A stretch of 64,000 bases of DNA, from the NCBI RefSeq assembly GCF_017302985.1, contig NZ_JAFIMU010000007.1:1798001-1862000 (forward strand), in the 5' to 3' direction. The stretch comes from Corallococcus macrosporus. Its GTDB lineage: Bacteria > Myxococcota > Myxococcia > Myxococcales > Myxococcaceae. The translations under genes were made by a program, and so were the position numbers. Each line of letters opens with the position of its first letter. Position 1 is the first letter of the stretch. Shown piece by piece: positions 25,193-36,495 of the stretch. A model generated the notes under the pieces. The model ran no database searches. It was not told where the DNA came from and saw nothing but the letters and a program-made list of their open reading frames with translations.

Positions 25193-26527
25193 ATGGAGAA
25201 CAAGAAGAAGGTCGCGAAGCCCGAGGGCAAGCTGGCGGTGCTCATCCCGGGCCTGGGCGCTGTTTCCACCACGCTGATGGCGGGTGTGGAGCTGGCGCGG
25301 CAGGGCAAGGGCGCCCCCATCGGCTCGCTCACGCAGATGGGCACCGCCCGTCTGGGCAAGCGCACCGACGGCCGCACCGTGAAGCTCAATGAGCTGGTGC
25401 CGCTCGCCACGCTGGACGACGTCGTGTTCGGCGCGTGGGACATCATCAGCGAGGACGCCTACCAGGTGGCCGTGCGCTCGGGCGTGCTGAGCGACAAGCA
25501 CCTGGAGCAGGTGAAGCCCTTCCTCCAGGGCATCAAGCCCAAGCCGGGCGTGCACGACCCGGAGTTCGTGCGCCGCATCACCGCGAACCACATCAAGGCC
25601 ACCAAGACGCACCGCGAGAGCATCGAAGCGCTGCGCCAGGACATCCGGGACTTCAAGAAGGAGCTCAACGCCAAGCGCGCCGTGATGGTGGTGTGCAGCA
25701 GCGTGGAGACCTTCCGCCCGCTGCCGGAGGCCTTCCAGACGCTGGCCAACTTCGAGAAGGCGCTGGACGCCAACAGCACGGACATCAACCCGACGGCGCT
25801 CTACACCTACGCGGCCATCAAGGAAGGCGTGCCCTTCGCGAACGGCACGCCGAACGCCGCGGTGGACACGCCCGCGCTGCAGGAGCTGGCGAAGCTGGAG
25901 GGCGTGCCCGTGGCGGGCCGTGACCTCAAGAGCGGCCAGACGATGATGAAGACGGTCATCGCGCCCGCGCTCAAGGCGCGCATGCTGGGCCTGGAGGGCT
26001 GGTTCTCCACCAACATCCTGGGCAATCGGGATGGCGAGGTGCTGGATGATCCGGCGGCCTTCAAGGCCAAGGAAGTGACCAAGTCGAGCGTGCTCGACAC
26101 CATCCTGCAGCCGGACCTGTACCCGGAGCTGTACAACAAGTACTCGCACAAGGTGTCGATCCACTACTACCCGCCCCGCGGCGACGCGAAGGAGGGCTGG
26201 GACAACATCGACATCACCGGGTGGCTGGGCTACCCGATGCAGATCAAGGTCAACTTCCTCTGCCGCGACTCCATCCTGGCGGCGCCGCTGGTGCTGGACA
26301 TCGCGCTGTTCATGGACCTGGCCAAGCGGCTGGAGTGGCGCGGCATCCAGGAGTGGATGTCCTTCTACTTCAAGAGCCCCATGGCCCACCCGGGCCTGCC
26401 GGTGGAGCACGACCTGTTCATCCAGCTGACGAAGCTGAAGAACACGCTGCGCGTCGTCGCGGGCGAAGAGCCCATCACGCACCTGGGGATGGACTACTAC
26501 GGGGATGACCTCCCGCTCGCCCGATAA
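25193..26527 (+). CDS. ino1: myo-inositol-1-phosphate synthase
   Basis: 444 residues. Converts glucose-6-phosphate to L-myo-inositol-1-phosphate with bound NAD. N-terminal nucleotide-binding start KLAVLIPGLGAVSTTLMAG; the catalytic block is clear: FANGTPNAAVDTPALQ, GVPVAGRDLKSGQTMMKT (the GGDDxKSGQT-like loop with the active-site Lys), GWFSTNILGNRDG (matching NHLGNNDG) and KEVTKSSVLD. Length lies between actinobacterial (~360) and eukaryotic (~510) forms. First gene of the operon: the next gene starts 23 bases before its stop. It supplies the head group for the enzymes downstream. Confidence 0.93.
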   Translation: MENKKKVAKPEGKLAVLIPGLGAVSTTLMAGVELARQGKGAPIGSLTQMGTARLGKRTDGRTVKLNELVPLATLDDVVFGAWDIISEDAYQVAVRSGVLSDKHLEQVKPFLQGIKPKPGVHDPEFVRRITANHIKATKTHRESIEALRQDIRDFKKELNAKRAVMVVCSSVETFRPLPEAFQTLANFEKALDANSTDINPTALYTYAAIKEGVPFANGTPNAAVDTPALQELAKLEGVPVAGRDLKSGQTMMKTVIAPALKARMLGLEGWFSTNILGNRDGEVLDDPAAFKAKEVTKSSVLDTILQPDLYPELYNKYSHKVSIHYYPPRGDAKEGWDNIDITGWLGYPMQIKVNFLCRDSILAAPLVLDIALFMDLAKRLEWRGIQEWMSFYFKSPMAHPGLPVEHDLFIQLTKLKNTLRVVAGEEPITHLGMDYYGDDLPLAR

Positions 26528-27440
26528 GAACGCCTCCGCGTTCAAGTGGCTCGTCACCGTCCTGGCGATGGGCCACTTCGCGTTGGTGGTCTCCACCGGT
26601 CGGGTCCGGTGGGAGCACGTCGCGGCGGACCTGCTGCTGGTGGTGCTGGCGCATGCCGGCGCCGGCCCGCGGCGGTTCCTCCGCGGCGCGTTCCCGCTGT
26701 GGCTGACCGGCATGATTTTGGACAGCCAGGCGCTGTGGCTGGGGGTGCGCGGCACCATCCACACCGGCGACCTGTGGAACCTGGAGAAGCTGCTGTTCCC
26801 CGCGCCGGGCGGCACGCACTGGCCCGAGTGGTGGTCGCGCCACCCGAACACGTTGCTGGACCTGCTGTGCGGCTTCGCCTACGCGGCCTACATCTACGAG
26901 GTCTTCCTCGTGGCGCTGTGGTTCTTCTTCAAGAAGGACGCGCGCTTCGAGCAGCTCTGCTGGGCCTTCTTCGTGGTGAACGCCATTGGCGTGGTCGTCT
27001 ACGTCCTCTACCCCGCGGCGCCCCCCTGGTACGTCCTGAAGTACGGGCCGGGGCTCGCGAACCTGGCGGCGCCGCCCAGTCCGGCGGGCACCGCGCGCTT
27101 CGATGCCTTCTTCGGCATCCACTACTTCGCGAACTTCTACGCCCGCAACCCCAACGTCTTCGGGGCCATGCCGTCGCTGCACGCGGCCTATCCGCTGATG
27201 ATGGTGCTCGTGCTGTGGCACAAGGGCCCCGCCTGGCGGGTGGGCACCGGTCTGTTCGCGCTGCTCGTCGCCTTTTCCGCTGTCTACCTCACGCACCACT
27301 ACGTGCTCGACGTGCTCGCGGGAGTCACCGCGGCGGTCGTGGCCTTCGTCGTCGTGAGGGCTGTCTTCGCAAGACGGGCCCTGGGTTCGCCCTCCGTGGC
27401 GCCCGTGACCCTGCCGTCTGGAGGAAACACCCGTGCATGA
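26505..27440 (+). CDS. AUR1-type PAP2 transferase, probable inositol-phosphoceramide synthase
   Basis: 311 residues with about 6-7 membrane helices. PAP2 catalytic motifs: PSLHAAY (Ser224, His226) and HHYVLDVLAG (His265-x3-Asp269). Before them is VLYPAAPPWYVL (~167-178), the APPWY motif of yeast Aur1 and bacterial inositol-phosphoceramide synthases. Family knowledge: Aur1 moves phosphoinositol from phosphatidylinositol onto ceramide, releasing diacylglycerol. Context (inositol-phosphate synthase upstream by overlap, PI-type synthase downstream by overlap) supports that reaction in the inner membrane. Alternative: another PAP2 phosphatase or inositol transferase with a different acceptor. Confidence 0.8.
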   Translation: MTSRSPDKNASAFKWLVTVLAMGHFALVVSTGRVRWEHVAADLLLVVLAHAGAGPRRFLRGAFPLWLTGMILDSQALWLGVRGTIHTGDLWNLEKLLFPAPGGTHWPEWWSRHPNTLLDLLCGFAYAAYIYEVFLVALWFFFKKDARFEQLCWAFFVVNAIGVVVYVLYPAAPPWYVLKYGPGLANLAAPPSPAGTARFDAFFGIHYFANFYARNPNVFGAMPSLHAAYPLMMVLVLWHKGPAWRVGTGLFALLVAFSAVYLTHHYVLDVLAGVTAAVVAFVVVRAVFARRALGSPSVAPVTLPSGGNTRA

Positions 27441-28677
27441 CAACGTCCTGGCATTGCTGAGCGGAGACCTGTCCCCCTCGGCGCGCATCTGGACCGCCCT
27501 GGCGCCCGCGCTCTTCGCGGTCGCCTACTTCCTCGTGGGGCTGGTGCTGTTCTGTATCCGGTGCGCCATCAAGGGCATCCCGAGGGACGCGGAGACGCTG
27601 ACGCGCGGCAAGTCGGTGCTGGTGGGCTTCTTCCTGCGCCACTACTTCTTCTGGGTCATCCAGCCGCTGTGGCGGGTGCTCCTGCGCTCGGGGCTGCCGG
27701 CCAACGCGCTGTCCATGCTGTCGGGCCTCTTGGGCGTGTCGTCCGGCGTGGCGGTGGCGGCGGGCCGCTTCGCGCTGGGCGGCTGGCTGTTCCTCTTCGC
27801 GGGCGTGCTGGACGTGATGGACGGCCGCGTGGCGCGCACCCGCAAGGAGGCCAACCCCGCGGGCGCGGCGCTGGACTCCGTGCTGGACCGCTACGTGGAC
27901 TCGGCCATCCTCATGGGCCTGGCCTGGTACTACCGGGACACCTGGGTGCTGTTGCCCGCGCTGGGGGCGCTGATGGGCTCCTCGCTGGTGCCGTACGTGC
28001 GCGCCAAGGGCGAGGGCCTGGGCGTGAGCGTGCGCGACGGCGCGATGCAGCGGCTGGAGCGGGTGCTGTTCCTGGGCGTGGGCACGGCGCTGTCGCCCAT
28101 CCTGGAGGCGCTGTTCTGGCCGGAGCAGAAGCACCCCATGCACTGGCTGGCGGTGGCGGGCCTCGTCTTCGTGGCCGTGCTGAGCAACGTCACGGCGGTG
28201 TCGCGCTTCCGCACGCTGGTGCGGGCGCTGACGCCGAAGAAGCCGGTGCAGCCGCGCTCGGGCGTGGCGCTGTTCGGCTTCAACGCGGCGGCGGGCGCCA
28301 TCGCCACGGCGGTGGACTTCGTCGCGGTGCTGGGCATGGTGGAGTGGGGGGGCATGTCTCCTGTGTGGGCCACGGTGGCCGGCTGCGTGCTGGGCGGCGT
28401 GGTGAACTACTCCATCAACCGGGTCATCACCTTCCGCAGCCGGGGCGCGGTGGCGCCGCAGTTGGCGCGCTACACGCTGGTGAGCGCGACCAGCGCGCTG
28501 CTCAACGCGGGCGGCGTGGCGCTGCTCACGCTGCACCCGCAGCTGGCGTACACGCTGGGCTGGTGGGTGGTGCGCGGGGTGGTCTACTTCGCGTGGAACC
28601 TGCCGCTGCAGCGCGACTACGTCTTCAACGACAACGCCTCGGGTGAGCTCCTGGAGCAGCGGCCCCATGCGGCGTGA
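27433..28677 (+). CDS. CDP-alcohol phosphatidyltransferase fused to a GtrA domain (probable phosphatidylinositol-phosphate synthase)
   Basis: 414 residues, many helices. Residues ~70-265 are a CDP-alcohol phosphatidyltransferase: the complete motif D-x2-D-G-x2-A-R-x8-G-x3-D-x3-D is at Asp127, Asp130, Gly131, Ala134, Arg135, Gly144, Asp148 and Asp152. Residues ~278-400 are a GtrA-type four-helix domain (FGFNAAAGAIATAVDF, GGVVNYSINRVITFRSRG, VYFAWNLPLQRDYVF), normally a separate lipid-linked-sugar flippase-like protein. With inositol-1-phosphate made upstream, the likely product is phosphatidylinositol phosphate from CDP-diacylglycerol. The fusion may couple synthesis to flipping. It overlaps both neighbours (8 and 11 bases). 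Confidence 0.85.
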   Translation: MHDNVLALLSGDLSPSARIWTALAPALFAVAYFLVGLVLFCIRCAIKGIPRDAETLTRGKSVLVGFFLRHYFFWVIQPLWRVLLRSGLPANALSMLSGLLGVSSGVAVAAGRFALGGWLFLFAGVLDVMDGRVARTRKEANPAGAALDSVLDRYVDSAILMGLAWYYRDTWVLLPALGALMGSSLVPYVRAKGEGLGVSVRDGAMQRLERVLFLGVGTALSPILEALFWPEQKHPMHWLAVAGLVFVAVLSNVTAVSRFRTLVRALTPKKPVQPRSGVALFGFNAAAGAIATAVDFVAVLGMVEWGGMSPVWATVAGCVLGGVVNYSINRVITFRSRGAVAPQLARYTLVSATSALLNAGGVALLTLHPQLAYTLGWWVVRGVVYFAWNLPLQRDYVFNDNASGELLEQRPHAA

Positions 28678-29662
28678 CACGCGCGCCCGCGGCTTGAGGG
28701 CCCTGCTGGTGGGGGCCCTGCTTTCACTTCCAGGGGTGGCGGCGGCGGGCGGCGTGCTGGGGTTGTCCTACAACTCCAGCGACCGGTACGGAGAGAGCTT
28801 CACCTTCGTGGCGGACACGGACGACGGCACCTACGTGACGGTGAACCTGTCGGTGACGAACATCGGCCCGGGGTCGCGCACGGGCATCTGCCGCGCCACG
28901 GTGCTGCAGCCGGGCAAGCCGGTCTGGTCCGCGCAGAAGCGCCTGGGCGCCAATGACTGGGGCTACAACCCGGCGTTGGATCAGCTCACCCTGGGCGAGT
29001 GCACCGCCCGGGCCACGGACACGGGCCTGACGGTGGAGGCGCCCCTGGACAACGGCCGGGTGAAGCTGGAGTACGCGAAGAAGGCCGAGCCGTGGTCGCC
29101 GGACGGCTCCGTGGTGGAGGAGGGCAAGGACCGCTACCGCCACGAGGTGGTGCTGGCCGGCAGCCCCGTGAAGGTGAAGCTCCAGATTCCCCTGCGGGAG
29201 ACGGTGACGCTGCAGGGTGGCGGGTACGTGGACCACTCGCGCAGCACGGTGGCGCCGGCCAAGCTGGCGAAGCGCTGGGTGCGCTTCCGCGCGCTCAAGG
29301 GGCCGCCGTACGCGGTGGTGCTGGGGCGCGAGGGCCAGGGCGGCGACTACGCGCCCGTGTACCTCTGGGAGGACCACGGGGACGCGAAGCAACTGGAGTC
29401 CTTCACGCTCACGCAGACGGGTGAGAAGGCGAAGAGCACCTGGCGGGCGGAGTTCACGGACCGCGACGGCAAGCCGGCGCTGACGCTCAAGGGCACGTCG
29501 CTTCTGCAGCGCAGCGCGCCGGTGGAGTCGCTGGGCGTGCTGAGCGGGCTGGTGCGGCCGATGGTGGGCTCGCCGGTGACGTACCTGCTGCGCGGCGTGA
29601 TGGAGCGTCCGGGCAAGGCGCCGGTGGACGGGCTGATGGAAGTGACGCTGGAAGGCGAGTAG
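28667..29662 (+). CDS. secreted protein of unknown function in the inositol-lipid operon
   Basis: 331 residues from the ATG at 28667, overlapping the previous stop by 11 bases. Cleavable signal (residues 1-26: LLVGALLSLPGVAAAGG). The mature protein is almost all beta-like: SFTFVADTDDGTYVTVNLSV, TNIGPGSRTGICRATVL, KVKLQIPLRETVTLQGGGYV, RFRALKGPPYAVVLG, TSLLQRSAPVESLGVLSGLV. Two Cys (GIC, GEC) ~40 residues apart could form a disulfide. The layout recalls AttH/carotenoid-hydratase-like lipocalin folds that handle lipids, but I cannot assign a family. Placement between synthase and phosphatase suggests a lipid-linked role (inference). Confidence 0.75.
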   Translation: MRRDTRARGLRALLVGALLSLPGVAAAGGVLGLSYNSSDRYGESFTFVADTDDGTYVTVNLSVTNIGPGSRTGICRATVLQPGKPVWSAQKRLGANDWGYNPALDQLTLGECTARATDTGLTVEAPLDNGRVKLEYAKKAEPWSPDGSVVEEGKDRYRHEVVLAGSPVKVKLQIPLRETVTLQGGGYVDHSRSTVAPAKLAKRWVRFRALKGPPYAVVLGREGQGGDYAPVYLWEDHGDAKQLESFTLTQTGEKAKSTWRAEFTDRDGKPALTLKGTSLLQRSAPVESLGVLSGLVRPMVGSPVTYLLRGVMERPGKAPVDGLMEVTLEGE

Positions 29663-29681
29663 CAGGCAGGGGATTGCAAGC

Positions 29682-30263
29682 GTGAGCGAGTCGTTGCTGC
29701 GGTCGGTGCATCACGTCCCCGGGGTCCGGGGGTTCGTGCGCAAGCAGGTGCTGCGGGTGGTGGCGCGAGGGGTGGAGTGGACCACCAAGCTCCCCGGCAA
29801 GCGCGCCCTCAACGTGTCCCAGGTGAATGCGTGGCTGCACGTGGGCGGCAGCGTGTCCCGCGCGCGCTACGGCGAATTGAAGGCCCGGGGCATCACCTGC
29901 GTCATCGACCTGCGCGCGGAGCGCAGTGACGACCGCGAGGCGCTGGCGGCGCTGGGCATCGAACTGCTGAACCTGCCGGTGACGGACCGCTATCCGCCGT
30001 CGGTGGAGCAGCTGTCGCAGGGCGTGCGCTGGGCGCTGCCCAGGCTGGACGCGGGCGGCGTGCTGTACGCGCACTGCGAGCACGGCGTGGGCCGCGGGCC
30101 GCTGATGGGGCTGGCGGTGATGGTGGCCCGGGGCTGGGACGCGCCGGAGGCGTACCGGACGGTGCGAAAGGCGCGCTGGCAGGCGACGCTGAACGACCGG
30201 CAGCTGCGGGGACTCGCGGACTTCGTGGCCGCGTGGACGGGCGTGCCGGAGCAGGCCGCGTAG
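29682..30263 (+). CDS. dual-specificity-type phosphatase, probable phosphatidylinositol-phosphate phosphatase
   Basis: 193 residues. Cys-based phosphatase: HCEHGVGRG gives the H-C-x5-R loop (Cys132, Arg138), with a general-acid Asp in LPVTDRYPP (Asp102) and the beta lead-in ITCVIDLRAERSDD. N-terminal HVGGSVSRARYGELKARGI matches the DSP fold of PTPMT1-like lipid phosphatases. In the Bacteroides-type and mycobacterial routes phosphatidylinositol phosphate must be dephosphorylated; this is the natural candidate, though protein targets are possible. No transmembrane helix is visible. GTG start, 19 bases after the secreted gene. Confidence 0.82.
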   Translation: MSESLLRSVHHVPGVRGFVRKQVLRVVARGVEWTTKLPGKRALNVSQVNAWLHVGGSVSRARYGELKARGITCVIDLRAERSDDREALAALGIELLNLPVTDRYPPSVEQLSQGVRWALPRLDAGGVLYAHCEHGVGRGPLMGLAVMVARGWDAPEAYRTVRKARWQATLNDRQLRGLADFVAAWTGVPEQAA

Positions 30264-30281
30264 CAGGCGCGCGTCGCCGCC

Positions 30282-30914
30282 TCACGCCTTCACGCCGGAG
30301 CGGGTCTCCTCGCCTGACGCATCCTTCCCGGAGCGCTTGGGGGCCCGTCCACCGCTGCCCATCAGGGTGTCCATCCACCTGTTGCTGATGCCGAAGTTGC
30401 GGTCCGGCGTCGCGAAGTGGTGCGCCATGTGGTGCGCGCGCAGCGCCTTGCCCCAGGCCGTGCGCGGCGTGCGGTGGTGCGTGGCCCAATGGAGGGTGTC
30501 GTAGGTCACGTAGCCCCAGACGATGCCCACGAAGTACGGAATCATCTGCACCGGGTGGCCCACCCACCACAGCAGCCCGCCAATGAGGGACGACAGCGGG
30601 ACGGTGACGATGAGCGGCATCACCAGTCGCTGGGCGTCGTCCGGGTACTTGTGATGGTAGCCGTGGGCAATCTCATGCACCCGCCGGGTGAGCGGGCCTT
30701 TGCCCTCCCAGTGGAAGGCGAACCGGTGGATGCCGTACTCCATGAGGATCCACGTCAGCAGCCCCAGCGGGACGAAGAGCACGCTCATCCCCACCGTCGT
30801 CCGTCCCCTCGCCAGGCTCCACCCGAGCAGGCCCACCGTGAGCGGGCCGTAGAGGAGGACCGGCACCGCGGGGTGCAGCTTGGAGGCCGCCTCCATGAAG
30901 GCATTCTCGAACAT
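30282..30914 (-). CDS. fatty-acid/sphingolipid 2-hydroxylase-like membrane protein
   Basis: 210 residues from the ATG at 30914 (other Met at 30950 and 30896). Four hydrophobic helices and the di-iron His boxes of the Scs7/FA2H and sterol-desaturase superfamily: EYGIHRFAFHWEG, VHEIAHGYHHKYPDDAQRLV, TLHWATHH and LRAHHMAHHF. The HGYHHKYPDDAQRLV block is closest to sphingolipid alpha-hydroxylases, which hydroxylate the N-acyl chain of ceramide. It converges on the phosphatase gene (18 bases), so it belongs to the same locus but to another transcript. A carotenoid or plain fatty-acid hydroxylase is the alternative. Confidence 0.82.
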   Translation of the reverse strand: MFENAFMEAASKLHPAVPVLLYGPLTVGLLGWSLARGRTTVGMSVLFVPLGLLTWILMEYGIHRFAFHWEGKGPLTRRVHEIAHGYHHKYPDDAQRLVMPLIVTVPLSSLIGGLLWWVGHPVQMIPYFVGIVWGYVTYDTLHWATHHRTPRTAWGKALRAHHMAHHFATPDRNFGISNRWMDTLMGSGGRAPKRSGKDASGEETRSGVKA

Positions 30915-31050
30915 CCGGCCAGATTGATGCCTGAAGTATGGGCGCCCCATACCGCGTGAAGATTGGGCTGGGGACTCCCGGGCGCCCATGCCCGTTCGTC
31001 TCTCCGCAGTGTCGGCTGGCGGAACGGCCCCGGCCCCTCCGGGCGCAATG

Positions 31051-31109: not shown

Positions 31110-33593
31110 TCAGCTCTCCGCGGGGCGCTCGGTGCCGTCGCCGCTGGCGGGGGTGGAGGCGGCGCTGTGCTTGTTGCGCCAGCGGTCCACCAGCAGCAGC
31201 AGCGCCGGGAAGCCCACCAGCACGATGACCATGTTCACCGCGAAGCCCAGGTTGGCCAGGTCGCCAATGGAGTTGAGGCCCGGGTGCTTGGCGAACACCA
31301 GCGCCAGGAAGCCGATGGCGCTGGTCAGCAGGCCGCCCGTGATGGCTCGGCCTGTCTCCGCGTACACGGTGGTGAAGTCCGCGCCCGGTTCACCCAGGCG
31401 CTCGATGAGGTGCACGCCCGCGTCCACGGTCGTGCCGATGAGCACCGGGATGACCACGATGTTGAGGTAGTTGAACTGCAGGCCCATGAGCGCCATCAGG
31501 CCCACCAGCGCCGCGATGGAGAGCAGCGTGGGCAGCATGCAGATGACCGCGTTGCGCAGGGAGCCCAGCGTCAGCCACATGGCCACGAAGACGCTGACCA
31601 CCGCGGCCACCAGGATGCGCGGCCCCTCGGAGGCCACCATGTCCAGGATGTCCGCCAGGATGAGCGCCTCGCCCGCCGCGGACACCTGGCTGCCGTCCGG
31701 CATCTGGAGGTTGCGCACCTCCTTGGTGAAGCGCCGCGTGCCCACGCCGTCCGACAGGCTCACGTTCGCGTAGACCAGCACCACGCCGCCCTTCTGGCCG
31801 GCCGCCGGCTCGAACTGGCGGCGCAGGCTCACCGGCAGGTCTTCCCGCGTGAAGGGCTGCGCGGCCGTCATCTTCACCGCGCGCAGCAGGTCGTCACGCT
31901 GGGCCTTGTCCACGCGCTCCGGGTCGATGCGCTGGAGCTTCTTGTGGATGGACTGGAGCAGCGCGTGCTTCTCCTCCTGCTGCTGGGGCACCAGGTCCTC
32001 CAGCGCGCCCACGAAGTCGATGGTGGAGTCCTTGCCGAACTTCGCCTTGCGCGCCTGGAGCTGGTTCACCACCTCGCGCTCCATGGCCTCCGAGTCCGTC
32101 AGCACCACCACCGGCGTCGCCGAGTAGCCCAGGATGTGGTCGATGCGCCGGTCCAGCCGCACGCTCGGCAGCGTCACGTCATCCAGCTTCGTGGAGTCGT
32201 AGTTGAAGCTCACCCGGTACGCCTGGCTGATGAGCCCCACCAGCGCCACGCCGATGACGACCACCACCGCGCGGTAGCGGCGCGGCAGGAAGCGCGCCAG
32301 CAGCGCCATGGGCCCGGACTGCGACTGGTGCTCGCGCGGCACCCAGCCCCAGCGCGACACCAGCCCCAGGAGCGCCGGGAGGATGAGCAGGTAGGACGCC
32401 ACGCTCACCAGCATGCCCACCGCCGCGATGACGCCGAACTCGTGGAACGCCCTGAACTCCGACAGCGACAGGCTCAGGAACGTGAGCGCCGCCACCAGCG
32501 CGGAGATGAGCGCGGAGAAGCCCGTGTGCCGGAACGTCTCACGCACCGCCTCCTCCGACGTCATGCCCTCCGAGCGCAGCGTGCCCCACCGGCCCAGCAG
32601 GTGGATGCCGTGCTCCACGCCCAGGCCGCCCAGCACCGCGCCCAGGAAGGCGGTCAGGAGATTTACCTGCCCGTACGCCACGCCCACGAAGCCGTAGGTC
32701 CACGCGAGGCCCGCGACCACCGGCACCATGGTGAGGCCCACGGACAGCGCGCTGCGGAAGTGGAAGACGAGGTAGGCCAGGAGCAGCACCAGGGCCAGCG
32801 TGGACGCGCGCGCCAGGTCGCCGGTGATGACCGCCTGCTGGTCGATCTTCTTCTTGAACGTGCCGGTGATCTCCGTGTGGAAGCCGGGGCCGTACTTCGA
32901 CAGGTCCTGCTTCGCCAGGTAGTCCTCCACCTGGGTGATGACCGTCTTGGAGTAGCCCAGGTCCGCGGACGAGCCCTTGGCCTTGAGCAGCATCACCACC
33001 ATGCGCTCCTGCGGATCCAGGTAGTACAGGCCGCCCTGCCCCGCGAGCCGCATGTTCGCGCCGCCGGTGTACTTCTTCTGGATGTCGCTGAAGTCCAGCG
33101 ACGGCGGGGGCTCCTCCTCCAGCCGCACGAAGAGCGGGTTGGCCTGCTCCTTCTCCCACGCGAAGCGCGCGTCGATGCGCTCCTCGATGGTCTTCAGGTC
33201 CGGCAGGTCCACGTAGTAGAGGCCGTGCTCGTCGAAGAACTGGCTGGGCCGCTGCGCGTTGACGAAGCGGATCTCCGACAGCGTCGCCAGCTTCGGCGCC
33301 ATGTCATCCACGAACTGCTTGAGCTGCTCCGGCTCCGCGCCGATGCCGGCCACCACCACGTTGCCCTGGCCGCCGAAGCGCGTGCGCAGCTTGTCCAGGT
33401 CCTTCACGGACTGGAAAGTCTTGGGCAGCAGGTTGGCCAGGTCCGCGTTGAGGCGCAGGTCTCGCGCGAAGAAGGTGCCCATGCCCGTCAGCACCAGCGT
33501 CACGAACAGCGCCACCCAGGGACGCTGGTGGCTGCGGGCCGCCAGGGAGCCCATCGCCGCCTCGAACCGTCCGGACCACCGCGTCTCACTCAT
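31110..33593 (-). CDS. RND/MMPL-family exporter (HpnN-like)
   Basis: 827 residues, two repeats of one helix + large periplasmic loop + five helices (12 helices). Conserved helix regions: GQVNLLTAFLGAVLGGLGVE...GIHLLGR (helix 4-5, first half) and FNYLNIVVIPVLIGTTVDAG followed by ITGGLLTSAIGFLALVFAKH (second half), as in MMPL/hopanoid-exporter RND proteins. The first loop (~65-270) and second loop (~450-640) are mixed alpha/beta. Probably transports a lipid or hydrophobic molecule using proton flow. It is a paralogue of the divergent gene at 33970. The adjacent inositol-lipid operon suggests, but does not prove, lipid substrates. Confidence 0.85.
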   Translation of the reverse strand: MSETRWSGRFEAAMGSLAARSHQRPWVALFVTLVLTGMGTFFARDLRLNADLANLLPKTFQSVKDLDKLRTRFGGQGNVVVAGIGAEPEQLKQFVDDMAPKLATLSEIRFVNAQRPSQFFDEHGLYYVDLPDLKTIEERIDARFAWEKEQANPLFVRLEEEPPPSLDFSDIQKKYTGGANMRLAGQGGLYYLDPQERMVVMLLKAKGSSADLGYSKTVITQVEDYLAKQDLSKYGPGFHTEITGTFKKKIDQQAVITGDLARASTLALVLLLAYLVFHFRSALSVGLTMVPVVAGLAWTYGFVGVAYGQVNLLTAFLGAVLGGLGVEHGIHLLGRWGTLRSEGMTSEEAVRETFRHTGFSALISALVAALTFLSLSLSEFRAFHEFGVIAAVGMLVSVASYLLILPALLGLVSRWGWVPREHQSQSGPMALLARFLPRRYRAVVVVIGVALVGLISQAYRVSFNYDSTKLDDVTLPSVRLDRRIDHILGYSATPVVVLTDSEAMEREVVNQLQARKAKFGKDSTIDFVGALEDLVPQQQEEKHALLQSIHKKLQRIDPERVDKAQRDDLLRAVKMTAAQPFTREDLPVSLRRQFEPAAGQKGGVVLVYANVSLSDGVGTRRFTKEVRNLQMPDGSQVSAAGEALILADILDMVASEGPRILVAAVVSVFVAMWLTLGSLRNAVICMLPTLLSIAALVGLMALMGLQFNYLNIVVIPVLIGTTVDAGVHLIERLGEPGADFTTVYAETGRAITGGLLTSAIGFLALVFAKHPGLNSIGDLANLGFAVNMVIVLVGFPALLLLVDRWRNKHSAASTPASGDGTERPAES

Positions 33594-33969
33594 GGATGTG
33601 ATTTCCTGCTGTAGGCCCGCGCCGTGACGGCCGGGGCAACCTTGAGCCCGGACGAACCGGGCCGCTCACGCGTATATGCCCCGAGCCACCGTGCGTCCAG
33701 GCATCGCCCCGGGGCCTCCGCCGGCCGCATGCCCGGCGCGGGGAACAAACAACGCATGAACAAACCGCGCCATGTATGCCGCCCACGCGCGCGTCATGCC
33801 AGGGGATCCGCTCCCCTCTGAGGCTTGAGGCATTTTGCCCCACACTCCGGTGCCGGGCGTTCGGGCGGGCTTCCCTGTCGCGCCGTGGTGCCGGGGGTCC
33901 GTGGCATGGGCAGCTTTTGCTCCAGCACGAGCCGTTTCAGGCAGCAGGCGCCCCCTGGGAGCACGGTCC
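33594..33969. other. divergent intergenic region between two exporter paralogues
   Basis: 376 bases with no supported gene. It must hold the promoters of both exporters. I see AT-richer patches (around 33825-33845) and a short AGGGG/CCCCT inverted repeat near 33800 but no convincing consensus promoter or operator. Confidence 0.5.
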
Positions 33970-36495
33970 ATGGCCACACCCCCGTCTTCACCATCGGAGC
34001 GCACGTGGATGCACCGGGTGGAGCGCACGATGGGTGCGCTGGCCGCGCACAACCATCGCCGCCCCGTCACCGCGCTCGTCTGCGCGCTCCTGCTGTCCGT
34101 CGTGGGCCTGCTGTCCGCCCGCCACCTGTCCCTCAACGCGAACCTCGTGGGCCTGCTGCCGGATTCGTTCGAAAGCGTGCAGGCCATCCACACGCTGGAG
34201 GAGCGCTTCGGCGCCCAGGGGTGGGTGGTGGTGGTGGGCGAGGACGCGGACCCCGCGCAGCTCAAGCGGTTCGCGGACGACCTGGCGCCGAAGCTGGAGG
34301 CGCTGCCGGGCATCCGCTACGTGGAGATCACCCGCCCCAGCAGCTTCTTCCGCGGCCATGCGCTCTACTTCCTGTCGCCAGAAGATTTGAAGGAGGTGGA
34401 GCGCCGCATCGACGCACGCCTCACGTGGGAGCGGCAGCATGCCAACCCGCTCTTCGTCTCGCTGGATGACGCGCCGGCCCCGTCGCTGGACTTCAGCGAC
34501 CTGGAGAAGAAGTACGCCGGCGGCGCGGTGACGCGCCTGTCCAGCCATCCCAGCGACTACTACCTGGATGCCTCCGCGCGCCGCGTGGTGGTGCTGGCCA
34601 AGCCCGAGACGTCGTCCGCGGACCTCGCCTTCTCCACGAAGATCGTCGAGGAGGTGCGGGGCGTGCTCAAGCAACAGGACCTGTCGAAGTACGGCCCCGG
34701 CTTCCACACGGAGATCACCGGCTCCTTCCAGAAGAAGATGGATCAGCAGGCGCAGATCACCCGCGACGTGGCGGTGTCCTCGACGGTGGCCACGGTGCTG
34801 GTGCTGCTCTACCTGTTCCTGCACTTCCGCAGCGCGCTGTCGGTGGGGCTGGTGCTGGCGCCGGTGGGCGCGGGGCTCGCGTGGACCTACGGCCTGGTGG
34901 CCATGGCGTACGGGCAGGTAAATCTCCTGACCGCCTTCCTGGGCGCCATCCTGGGCGGCCTGGGCGTGGAGCACGGCATCCACCTGCTGGGCCGCTACCT
35001 CGCGCTGCGCGGAGAGGGCAGGTCCTCCGAGGACGCCACGCGCGAGGCGTTCACGCACACGGGAGGCGCGGCGCTGGTGTCCGCGCTGGTGGCGGCGCTC
35101 ACCTTCTTCGTGCTGGGCACCTCCCAGCTCCGGGCGTTCCGCGAGTTCGGCGTCATCGCGGGCGTGGGCATGCTGGTGCTCGTGCTCGCGTACGTGGTGG
35201 TGCTGCCGGCGGTGCTGGGGCTGGTGGCGCGCTGGGGCTGGACGCCACGGGCGTCCTCCACGGAGACGACGGAGGCCCCGCTGGGCCGCGTCATCATCCA
35301 CCGGCGCGGGCTGCTCACCGCCGTGTCCGTGCTCGTCGTGGCGGGCCTGCTCACGCAGCTGCCGCGCCTGCGGTTCGACTACGACATCTCGTCGCTGCAG
35401 GACCAGCGCCTGGACTCCTTCGTCCTGGACCGCGCCGTCAACCAGCTCATCGGCTATTCGCAGGTCCCGCTGGTGGTGCTCACGAACTCCCGCGGCGAGG
35501 AAGCGGCGGTCGTCCAGCAGCTCCAGGCGCGCAAGCAGCAGCGGGGCGCGGACTCCACGGTGGACTTCGTCGCGGCGCTCGCGAGCCTCGTGCCGGACCG
35601 GCAGCAGGAGAAGCAGGCCATCCTGGAGGACATCGGGGAGCTGCTGAAGCGCGTGCCCGAGGGCCAGCTCACGCCCCAGCAGCGGGAGCAACTGGAGGAG
35701 CTGCGCGTGCAGGTGCGGGCGAAGCCCTTCACGGAGGCGGACCTGCCGCGCAGCGTGCGCCAGCAGTTCGAGGGACGCGGAGGGCCGGGCACCGGCTTCG
35801 TGCTGGTGTATCCGTCCGCGGATCAATCCAACGGACAGGCCATGCGCCAGCTGGCGAAGGAGGTTCGCGGGGTGAAGCTGCCGGACGGCCGGGCCGCGGT
35901 GGTGGCGGGCGAGGCGATGGTGCAGGCGGACATCTTCGACACGGTGGCGCACGAGGCGCCGTACATCCTGCTGGGCTCCACGCTCACGGTGCTGCTGGCC
36001 ATGTGGATCACCCTGGGCGGCCTGCGCACCGCGCTCCTGTGCCTGATGCCCACGGTGGTGTCGCTGTTCGCGGTGCTGGGGCTGATGCCGCTGCTGCACA
36101 TGGAGTTCAACTACCTCAACATCCTGGTCATCCCGGTGCTCATCGGGACGACGGTGGACGCGGGCGTGCACCTCATCACGCGGCTCGCGTCGCAGAGCAG
36201 CGACTTCGTGCGGGTGTACTCGGAGACGGGCAAGGCCATCTGCGGCGGCCTGCTCACGAGCGCGGTGGGCTTCGGCGCGCTGCTGCTCGCGGACCACCCG
36301 GGGCTCAACTCCATTGGCGCGCTGGCGAACGTGGGGTTCGGCATGAACCTGCTCATCATGCTGGTGACCTTCCCGGCGCTGCTGCTGGTGCTCTCCGAGC
36401 GCAAGCGGCGCCACCGTGCGGTTTCCCCGCGTCCCCGGGATGCGCACCTGTTGGAGGAAGGCCGGGGTCCTCATCGGCCCACGCCCTCCCACTAG
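33970..36495 (+). CDS. RND/MMPL-family exporter (HpnN-like), second paralogue
   Basis: 841 residues from the ATG at 33970; this start aligns with that of the paralogue (both reach MGSLAA/MGALAA ~15-20 residues in), whereas the open frame further upstream is Arg/Gly-rich and untypical. Same architecture and nearly the same helix motifs: GQVNLLTAFLGAILGGLGVE, FNYLNILVIPVLIGTTVDAG, AICGGLLTSAVGFGALLLAD. The loops diverge more than the helices, so substrates may differ. C-terminus is basic (SERKRRHRAVSPRPRD). It arose by inverted duplication with the gene at 31110-33593. Confidence 0.85.
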   Translation: MATPPSSPSERTWMHRVERTMGALAAHNHRRPVTALVCALLLSVVGLLSARHLSLNANLVGLLPDSFESVQAIHTLEERFGAQGWVVVVGEDADPAQLKRFADDLAPKLEALPGIRYVEITRPSSFFRGHALYFLSPEDLKEVERRIDARLTWERQHANPLFVSLDDAPAPSLDFSDLEKKYAGGAVTRLSSHPSDYYLDASARRVVVLAKPETSSADLAFSTKIVEEVRGVLKQQDLSKYGPGFHTEITGSFQKKMDQQAQITRDVAVSSTVATVLVLLYLFLHFRSALSVGLVLAPVGAGLAWTYGLVAMAYGQVNLLTAFLGAILGGLGVEHGIHLLGRYLALRGEGRSSEDATREAFTHTGGAALVSALVAALTFFVLGTSQLRAFREFGVIAGVGMLVLVLAYVVVLPAVLGLVARWGWTPRASSTETTEAPLGRVIIHRRGLLTAVSVLVVAGLLTQLPRLRFDYDISSLQDQRLDSFVLDRAVNQLIGYSQVPLVVLTNSRGEEAAVVQQLQARKQQRGADSTVDFVAALASLVPDRQQEKQAILEDIGELLKRVPEGQLTPQQREQLEELRVQVRAKPFTEADLPRSVRQQFEGRGGPGTGFVLVYPSADQSNGQAMRQLAKEVRGVKLPDGRAAVVAGEAMVQADIFDTVAHEAPYILLGSTLTVLLAMWITLGGLRTALLCLMPTVVSLFAVLGLMPLLHMEFNYLNILVIPVLIGTTVDAGVHLITRLASQSSDFVRVYSETGKAICGGLLTSAVGFGALLLADHPGLNSIGALANVGFGMNLLIMLVTFPALLLVLSERKRRHRAVSPRPRDAHLLEEGRGPHRPTPSH

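Follow-up and report, generated by a model that had tools for sequence, protein, structure and literature searches.

A probable phosphatidylinositol and inositol-phosphoceramide operon with a predicted double-lipocalin protein in Corallococcus macrosporus

Known inositol-lipid systems and the myxobacterial operon

The closest described counterpart of the locus presented here is the cluster BT_1522 to BT_1526 of Bacteroides thetaiotaomicron, which, in the available text of PMC9246714, consists of an AUR1-like protein (BT_1522), a phosphatidylinositol-phosphate (PIP) synthase (BT_1523), a GtrA protein (BT_1524), a PgpA-like PIP phosphatase (BT_1525) and a myo-inositol-1-phosphate synthase (MIPS; BT_1526). 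The present locus lies in a 64,000-nucleotide stretch, hereafter the window, of the 9.8 Mb genome of the myxobacterium Corallococcus macrosporus (assembly GCF_017302985.1, contig NZ_JAFIMU010000007.1, forward-strand positions 1,798,001 to 1,862,000). It comprises six verified open reading frames (ORFs): five tandem genes on the + strand, from position 25193 to 30263, and a convergent hydroxylase gene on the - strand. As in Bacteroides, MIPS, PIP synthase, GtrA, phosphatase and AUR1-like transferase are found together, and phosphatidylinositol (PI) would be reached via PI-phosphate. On sequence comparison, the core pathway from PI-phosphate through PI to inositol-phosphoceramide (IPC) is very likely present in this myxobacterium. 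With good, if somewhat lesser, confidence the operon makes PI and IPC by the complete route set out below, in which a secreted protein (SECR) would serve as carrier, an MMPL transporter as exporter and an SCS7-like enzyme as hydroxylase. A preliminary description of the locus had proposed the same succession of PI-phosphate, PI and IPC, and checks of the AUR1-like protein, the CDP-alcohol protein, serine palmitoyltransferase (SPT) and gene conservation support it.

The myxobacterial operon departs from the Bacteroides cluster in several features. PIP synthase and GtrA form one protein here, whereas GtrA has a separate gene there; the phosphatase is a dual-specificity phosphatase (DSP) instead of a PgpA-like enzyme; and SECR and MMPL accompany the cluster, whose proteins score below the curated equivalog cut-offs. 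No PgpA-like phosphatase is present in the operon, to which that comparison is confined. The same four enzyme types had been ascribed to both loci, which is right for MIPS, PIP synthase and the AUR1-like enzyme but inexact for the phosphatase. The GtrA part, which had been regarded as new, is not so, the notion of a novel part being ruled out by BT_1524 (PMC9246714, available text). In its main text, that paper uses neither ‘lipocalin’ nor ‘MMPL’ nor ‘dual specificity’.

Yeast provides the closest solved relatives of the transferase and the hydroxylase, Aur1 and Scs7, and the same head-group transfer and 2-hydroxylation chemistry is proposed here. The similarity to Aur1 is limited to the catalytic region (residues 112-282 of 311), and the hydroxylase differs from Scs7 in having no matched cytochrome b5 domain. 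Yeast Svf1, a protein of two lipocalin domains, is a proposed ceramide carrier, cytosolic and Golgi-bound; when it is deleted, ceramides increase and complex sphingolipids decrease (PMC10583516, available text). SECR has in common with Svf1 the two-lipocalin fold family (by model), Svf1_C matches in fused homologues and the association with IPC synthesis; unlike Svf1, it is probably exported or membrane-tethered, and the window protein matches no Svf1 model. The mycobacterial PIP synthase PgsA1 shares the CDP-alcohol signature and the arginines for inositol-phosphate. To our knowledge, PgsA1 has no GtrA or lipocalin fusion, and mycobacterial PI feeds other glycolipids.

The lipid and the kinds of enzyme are already known: ceramide phosphoinositol is reported in Myxococcus xanthus, as cited by Heaver 2022 (PMC9246714), and several myxobacteria have functional FA2H-like 2-hydroxylases according to a review (PMC10002949), both as given in the available text of these sources. 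In the open-licence literature, no description was found of the myxobacterial operon, of PIP synthase-GtrA or PIP synthase-GtrA-lipocalin fusions, of DSP or HAD phosphatases in this setting, or of the link between lipocalin and MMPL. The locus supplies candidate genes for the ceramide phosphoinositol described from M. xanthus, allows a prediction of the myxobacteria in which IPC should be absent, and adds DSP and HAD proteins to the candidates for dephosphorylation of PI-phosphate. It also points to SECR as a candidate carrier and to MMPL as a candidate exporter of sphingolipids and inositol lipids in bacteria; no dedicated transport proteins for these bacterial lipids are known to us. The presence of bacterial relatives of fungal Aur1, Scs7 and Svf1 in one neighbourhood makes the origin of the IPC pathway testable.

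Enzymes of the proposed pathway

At their listed starts, the first four genes overlap by 23, 8 and 35 bases, and a 19-base gap separates SECR from DSP. SECR possibly starts at its ninth codon, which would shrink its overlap with the PIP synthase-GtrA gene from 35 to 11 bases. The ORF coordinates bear out the earlier account of a five-gene run with overlaps and a 19-base gap, followed by a convergent hydroxylase. The first gene, MIPS (25193-26527, + strand, as for the next four), would convert glucose-6-phosphate to inositol-phosphate. Its product matches the Pfam domains NAD_binding_5 and Inos-1-P_synth, both above cut-off (286 and 114 bits). Its top PDB match is 7nwr at 480 bits, the runner-up among solved MIPS structures reaching 207 bits; 7NWR is BT_1526, the B. 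thetaiotaomicron MIPS (PMC9246714, available text).

The AUR1-like gene (26505-27440), here PAP2, encodes a phosphoinositol transferase and probable IPC synthase. The protein matches PAP2_3 at 97 bits, above the Pfam cut-off. AUR1 is by far its closest solved relative, with E values of about 1e-20 to PDB entries 9vj3 and 9ivc (best 7e-21), the next PAP2 enzyme following at E 0.013, and the blocks APPWY, PSLH and YLTHHY..D are common to PAP2 and AUR1. Across the genome, PAP2 alone matches NF052609 (phosphoinositol-dihydroceramide synthase), at 143 bits against a cut-off of 480; four PAP2 relatives in other loci likewise remain below that cut-off (142-213 bits). These results agree with the previous placement beside the Aur1/IPC synthase families. 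NF052609 matches none of 14 control genomes, and because the Bacteroides control is among the genomes without a match, the scan has no positive control. PAP2 probably transfers phosphoinositol from PI to ceramide, which would come from a distant SPT locus, to give IPC.

The third gene (27433-28677) encodes a CDP-alcohol phosphatidyltransferase fused to GtrA. The synthase domain, here CDPAP (27433-28272), is a probable PIP synthase, and the GtrA_DPMS_TM domain (28273-28677; PF04138, 59.7 bits, cut-off 26.1) a possible flippase; the border at 28272/28273 is a cut of our choosing. CDPAP would join inositol-phosphate and CDP-diacylglycerol to PI-phosphate on the cytosolic side, and the GtrA part may aid the passage of PI to the outer leaflet of the inner membrane. 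CDP-OH_P_transf gives CDPAP 52 bits, above the Pfam cut-off, and the best PDB match is the PIP synthase 6wm5 (E 5e-17). The NCBIfam scores are 100 bits for PIPSynth (NF045883, cut-off 170), 116 for PIPSynBT1523 (NF052561, cut-off 350) and 120 for archin_ph_syn (NF040950, cut-off 180). The CDP-alcohol signature D..DG..AR...G...D...D is present as DVMDGRVAR...GAALDSVLD. In the M. tuberculosis PIP synthase, R155 and R195 bind the phosphate of inositol-phosphate (PMC4634129, available text), and their counterparts in CDPAP are found in ‘QRLER’, by alignment to 6wm5, and in ‘NVTAVSR’, by motif placement only. Among 32 distinct homologous frames, the full signature occurs in 32, ‘ER’ in 31 and T/A-A/G-x-x-R in 30, counted as fixed patterns in raw frames, with the gene shared by the overlapping loci L090 and L165 counted once. 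The genome holds four further CDP-alcohol-family matches besides CDPAP.

The last tandem gene, DSP (29682-30263), encodes a dual-specificity phosphatase that probably removes the phosphate from PI-phosphate, which would take place in the cytosol. Its DSPc score of 30.1 bits is below the cut-off of 33.5, and three other DSP-PTPase Pfam models score above theirs. The active-site loop HCx5R is present as HCEHGVGR. By a simple hydropathy scan, the protein has no hydrophobic or membrane segment and no signal. Its PDB matches are protein tyrosine phosphatases, among them PTPMT1 (3rgo, E 1.5e-6), which is a lipid phosphatase.

The convergent gene (30282-30989, - strand) encodes an SCS7/FA2H-like fatty-acid 2-hydroxylase, which may place a 2-hydroxyl group on the acyl chains of ceramide. 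FA_hydroxylase (PF04116) gives 57.6 bits, above cut-off, and at E 0.01 SCS7 (4zr1 and 4zr0) alone is matched in the PDB, with an E value of 4e-19 and the His boxes aligned. No cytochrome b5 domain is matched on the protein by Pfam at E 0.01; the FA2H/SCS7 enzymes of yeast and animals carry such a domain at their N-terminus. The convergent placement given in the preliminary description is correct, but the ATG at 30914, taken there as the end of the gene, is internal to the longest ORF, which begins at 30989; the start is either 30989 or 30914.

Ceramide supply and conservation of the operon

The pathway calls on an SPT gene elsewhere in the genome, and a probable one is found on a separate contig at C1:57124-58140. 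The genome has 20 aminotransferase-family matches at E 1e-15, three of which, chosen for their oxoamine-synthase look, were scanned against NCBIfam. SPT is the best model for C1:57124-58140 (512 bits, cut-off 640) and also for C17:267952-268965, at a lower level (375 of 500), and the third clears the BioF cut-off. In the SPT locus (G000:C1, L055:9805-17152), the gene is accompanied by a GNAT acyltransferase-like gene, an MlaC-like gene, an MMPL transporter gene resembling HpnN and another PAP2_3 gene (L055:16207) of a type unlike AUR1. This PAP2_3 gene was considered as a better IPC synthase candidate and ruled out, NF052609 giving no match to it. The bacterial ceramide synthase is probably a GNAT-family protein. 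Of 25 chosen genomes, 23 carry a GNAT gene like that beside SPT, and the five chosen from the window's family for lack of PAP2 (G061, G067, G070, G105 and G108) are all among them; the test is non-discriminating because PAP2-lacking genomes carry GNAT too.

In a survey of 195 Myxococcota genomes, with thresholds of E 1e-10 for PAP2, 1e-6 for SECR and 1e-120 for close SPT, 78 genomes are positive for PAP2, 84 for SECR and 85 for close SPT. PAP2 occurs with SECR in 69 genomes and with close SPT in 62, cross-tables that are confounded by genome kinship and whose Fisher p-values are not evidence of independent events. Close SPT is present in each of the 54 Myxococcaceae genomes that hold both PAP2 and SECR. 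A laxer search reveals SPT relatives of 45-46% identity in G156 and G157, two of the 16 PAP2-positive genomes without close SPT. The best matches in the other 14 are 33-40% identical, as in the PAP2-negative controls G067 and G070. These results weaken the case for a strict link of PAP2 to SPT beyond Myxococcaceae. In G023, a member of family f2, and in G144, the SPT-like match is the C-terminal end of a polyketide synthase of 2258 or 2313 residues with KS, AT, KR and DH domains, and such a synthase is a possible alternative source of a sphingoid base.

The polyketide synthases with a terminal oxoamine-synthase-like domain are located at L163:257-7030 (G023:C53) and L164:3743-10681 (G144:C38). 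In L164, by sequence, the synthase is preceded by AMP-ligase-like and acyl-carrier-protein-like ORFs, and a GNAT gene like that beside SPT is in the same locus.

The arrangement of the operon is conserved. Twenty-seven loci were fetched by name, of which 24 are Myxococcaceae-like, and in 23 of these the order MIPS-PAP2-CDPAP-GtrA-SECR-DSP is kept, so the arrangement is not due to chance; conservation of the locus, a check proposed in the preliminary description, is borne out. The exception is L105, whose contig starts inside the SECR gene. In L104, the contig end truncates MIPS and the CDPAP match is split in two. M. xanthus AM003 carries the operon (L110). Nine of the 24 loci have the hydroxylase as the next gene detected, convergent in seven and in the same direction in two, and in L101 it lies about 1.4 kb away. 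Its SCS7/FA2H-like identity stands as first described, but its link to the operon is loose, and the enzyme would belong to the same pathway without being a fixed part of the operon. L123 has MIPS-PAP2-CDPAP-GtrA-SECR-MMPL without DSP, and in L124 and L125 SECR is present without any other operon gene.

In three loci, genes of the operon are joined to genes of ceramide synthesis, and no other evidence speaks as strongly for a role of the PI operon in making sphingolipids. A single stretch of L086 (G049) contains MMPL, aminotransferase, MlaC-like, CDPAP, HAD, PAP2, MIPS, hydroxylase, SPT, GNAT and epimerase-like genes. L165 (G040) and L162 (G041) hold PAP2, SECR, HAD, CDPAP, MlaC-like, aminotransferase, MMPL, SPT and GNAT genes in one stretch, and no match to MIPS is found within either locus. 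In L165, GtrA accompanies CDPAP, and an epimerase-family gene follows GNAT (Pfam). Many genes of these three clusters were identified by tblastn alone, and the L086 epimerase from its first residues.

One of the 24 Myxococcaceae-like loci, L120 (BNCN01000008.1), is titled Comamonas sp. KCTC 72670; its whole operon is Myxococcus-like, and the genome is probably mislabelled.

The secreted protein, rival explanations and neighbouring genes

The SECR gene (28643-29662, + strand) encodes a protein with a signal-peptide-like N-terminus, in which a simple hydropathy scan finds a single hydrophobic stretch at residues 17-35. A sequence search of the PDB returned no matches. For the protein encoded in the window, AlphaFold yields a model with a pLDDT of 87.8 and a pTM of 0.88, and a fold search with this model gives Z scores of 22.4 for CghA, about 22 for Fsa2 and Phm7, 21.4 for NE1406, 18.9 for kievitone hydratase and 18.7 for 25-phosphosteroid lyase, followed by a drop to 7.8. 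By its predicted fold, SECR is a double-lipocalin protein of the AttH/CrtC/CghA/Fsa2 fold family, and what had been described as a secreted protein of no known kind is identifiable from the model and the fold search. The match to NE1406 extends across 279 residues of the two-lipocalin fold, and the likeness to Svf1 is drawn through this template. PF08622 is the Svf1 family. Both PF08622 and the CrtC family have been proposed to be modelled structurally on NE1406 (PMC2954199, available text).

In six loci (L074, L087, L088, L089, L092 and L093), SECR forms the C-terminal part of one ORF with CDPAP-GtrA, and in 10 of the 84 SECR-positive genomes the frame around SECR is at least 744 residues long. 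The Pfam model Svf1_C (PF17187) matches five of the six fused SECR domains (E 6.6e-6 to 1.5e-3), two of the six above the gathering cut-off. The window-type and f2-type SECR domains are homologous, with an hhalign probability of 98.7 and an E value of 2.5e-16, in a comparison whose window-type profile included the fused L074 sequence. A carrier role is not proven by the fold alone, since the two-lipocalin family is functionally mixed. A periplasmic role in lipid handling is favoured by the fusion to CDPAP-GtrA, by the N-terminus, which resembles a signal peptide, and by the repeated proximity of MMPL, and SECR is plausibly a periplasmic lipid carrier. Its cargo would most likely be ceramide, PI or IPC, which it may pass on together with the MMPL exporter toward the outer membrane. 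A broader proposal, which we advance tentatively and with somewhat more doubt than belief, is a bacterial fungal-type IPC module, in which AUR1 and SCS7 are combined with an Svf1-like double-lipocalin protein, either exported to the periplasm or fused to PIP synthase-GtrA, that would pass ceramide or inositol lipids to or from the MMPL exporter toward the outer membrane. If true, Gram-negative bacteria would have in this module a transport route dedicated to sphingolipids.

A number of observations weigh against the proposed synthesis of PI and IPC or against parts of it. The equivalog cut-offs of NF052609 for PAP2, of NF045883, NF052561 and NF040950 for CDPAP and of the SPT model for C1:57124-58140 are not reached, and PAP2 is accordingly filed as AUR1-like, not as an equivalog member, and CDPAP as PIP-synthase-like. 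A second PAP2_3 gene stands in the SPT locus. The window's SECR gives no match to an Svf1 model at E up to 5, and enzymes are among its fold relatives. Close SPT is found without PAP2 in 23 genomes, SECR without PAP2 in 15 of 84, and PAP2 without SECR in 9 of 78. The genera g3 (G061-G066) and g6 (G090-G093) are SPT-positive and lack PAP2, and are predicted to form ceramides without IPC. Knockout of the GtrA gene BT_1524 gave no lipid phenotype by thin-layer chromatography (PMC9246714, available text). Close SPT is lacking in 16 of the 78 PAP2-positive genomes (ten of family f2, G018, G033, G144, G145, G156 and G157), among them all ten PAP2-positive f2 genomes, which would suit an AUR1-like enzyme that, at least in part of the phylum, does not use ceramide and acts on another acceptor, such as diacylglycerol or an amino-lipid, or as a phosphatase. 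This explanation appears improbable in view of the closeness of PAP2 to AUR1 and the constant presence of SPT in Myxococcaceae with PAP2 and SECR. The polyketide synthases of G023 and G144 could moreover supply a sphingoid-like base, and others of the genomes without close SPT have matches in frames of similar length, as do, however, the PAP2-lacking controls G067 and G070. It is more improbable still, to the point of being hardly credible, that CDPAP yields a different product from PI-phosphate, such as a lipid of the phosphatidylglycerol type or a soluble phosphodiester of inositol. The sub-threshold PIP-synthase scores would allow for it, as would the 56 bits given by the model of CDP-inositol inositolphosphotransferase, which makes a soluble inositol phosphodiester. 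However, CDPAP scores highest with models of inositol-phosphate enzymes and finds its best PDB match among such enzymes, the operon is shared with MIPS, both phosphate-binding arginines have counterparts, and the PgsA and cardiolipin synthase models give at most 28 bits compared with 100-120 for the inositol-phosphate models. CDPAP thus sides with the PIP and archaetidylinositol-phosphate synthases and not with the phosphatidylglycerol-phosphate and cardiolipin synthases, as the preliminary reading entails.

The roles of DSP and SECR are the parts most exposed to other explanations. DSP could be a protein phosphatase or regulator, with another enzyme dephosphorylating PI-phosphate. Among proteins of solved structure it is closest to protein tyrosine phosphatases, the enzyme for this step in Bacteroides is PgpA-like (PMC9246714, available text), three loci of family f3 have a HAD protein and no DSP match, and no phosphatase was identified in L074 and the f2 loci. 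On the other side, DSP follows SECR at the operon end in all 24 Myxococcaceae-like named loci, carries no signal or membrane segment in the simple scan, weakly matches PTPMT1, and recurs at 30-33% identity in the clusters of L071 and L095. A regulatory role is rather unlikely on balance, and removal of phosphate from PI-phosphate is the preferred function. Of much the same standing, and if anything slightly less unlikely, is the explanation that SECR is an enzyme, a hydratase or lyase comparable to CrtC, to kievitone hydratase or to 25-phosphosteroid lyase, which acts on a periplasmic lipid of the pathway and carries nothing. The proteins of named function that it most resembles in structure are enzymes (CghA, Fsa2, Phm7, kievitone hydratase and 25-phosphosteroid lyase), and the Asp of a G-x-x-Y-x-D motif is invariant in 19 of 19 aligned sequences. 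The His beside this Asp is constant in the close set, but the fused f2 homologues have Thr in its place; fused relatives match Svf1_C, the family of a proposed ceramide carrier in yeast (PMC10583516, available text); and SECR neighbours MMPL exporters. The carrier function remains the preferred reading of SECR.

Beyond the hydroxylase, an MMPL/HpnN-like RND lipid exporter (31110-33593, - strand) is a recurrent neighbour of the operon. It matches the MMPL Pfam model at 151 bits, HpnN at 293 and BstA at 155, the latter two below cut-off. A second, putative MMPL transporter of uncertain start (33835-36495, + strand) is divergent from the first and was recognized as an ORF and through a neighbouring second MMPL match in related loci, which is 48-59% identical to the first. 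In distant loci, MMPL adjoins the cluster or sits inside it, and it lies directly beside SECR in L074, L157, L158 and L161.

SECR relatives also occur in other surroundings. In PAP2-lacking genomes, the neighbourhoods of L154, L155, L156 and L159 are without other operon genes, L155 having only a weak match to the PAP2 of the SPT locus. In L160:5115-9235 (G060:C13), a second SECR copy is located about 2.5 kb from a match to the SCS7-like hydroxylase, near RND-efflux-like ORFs.

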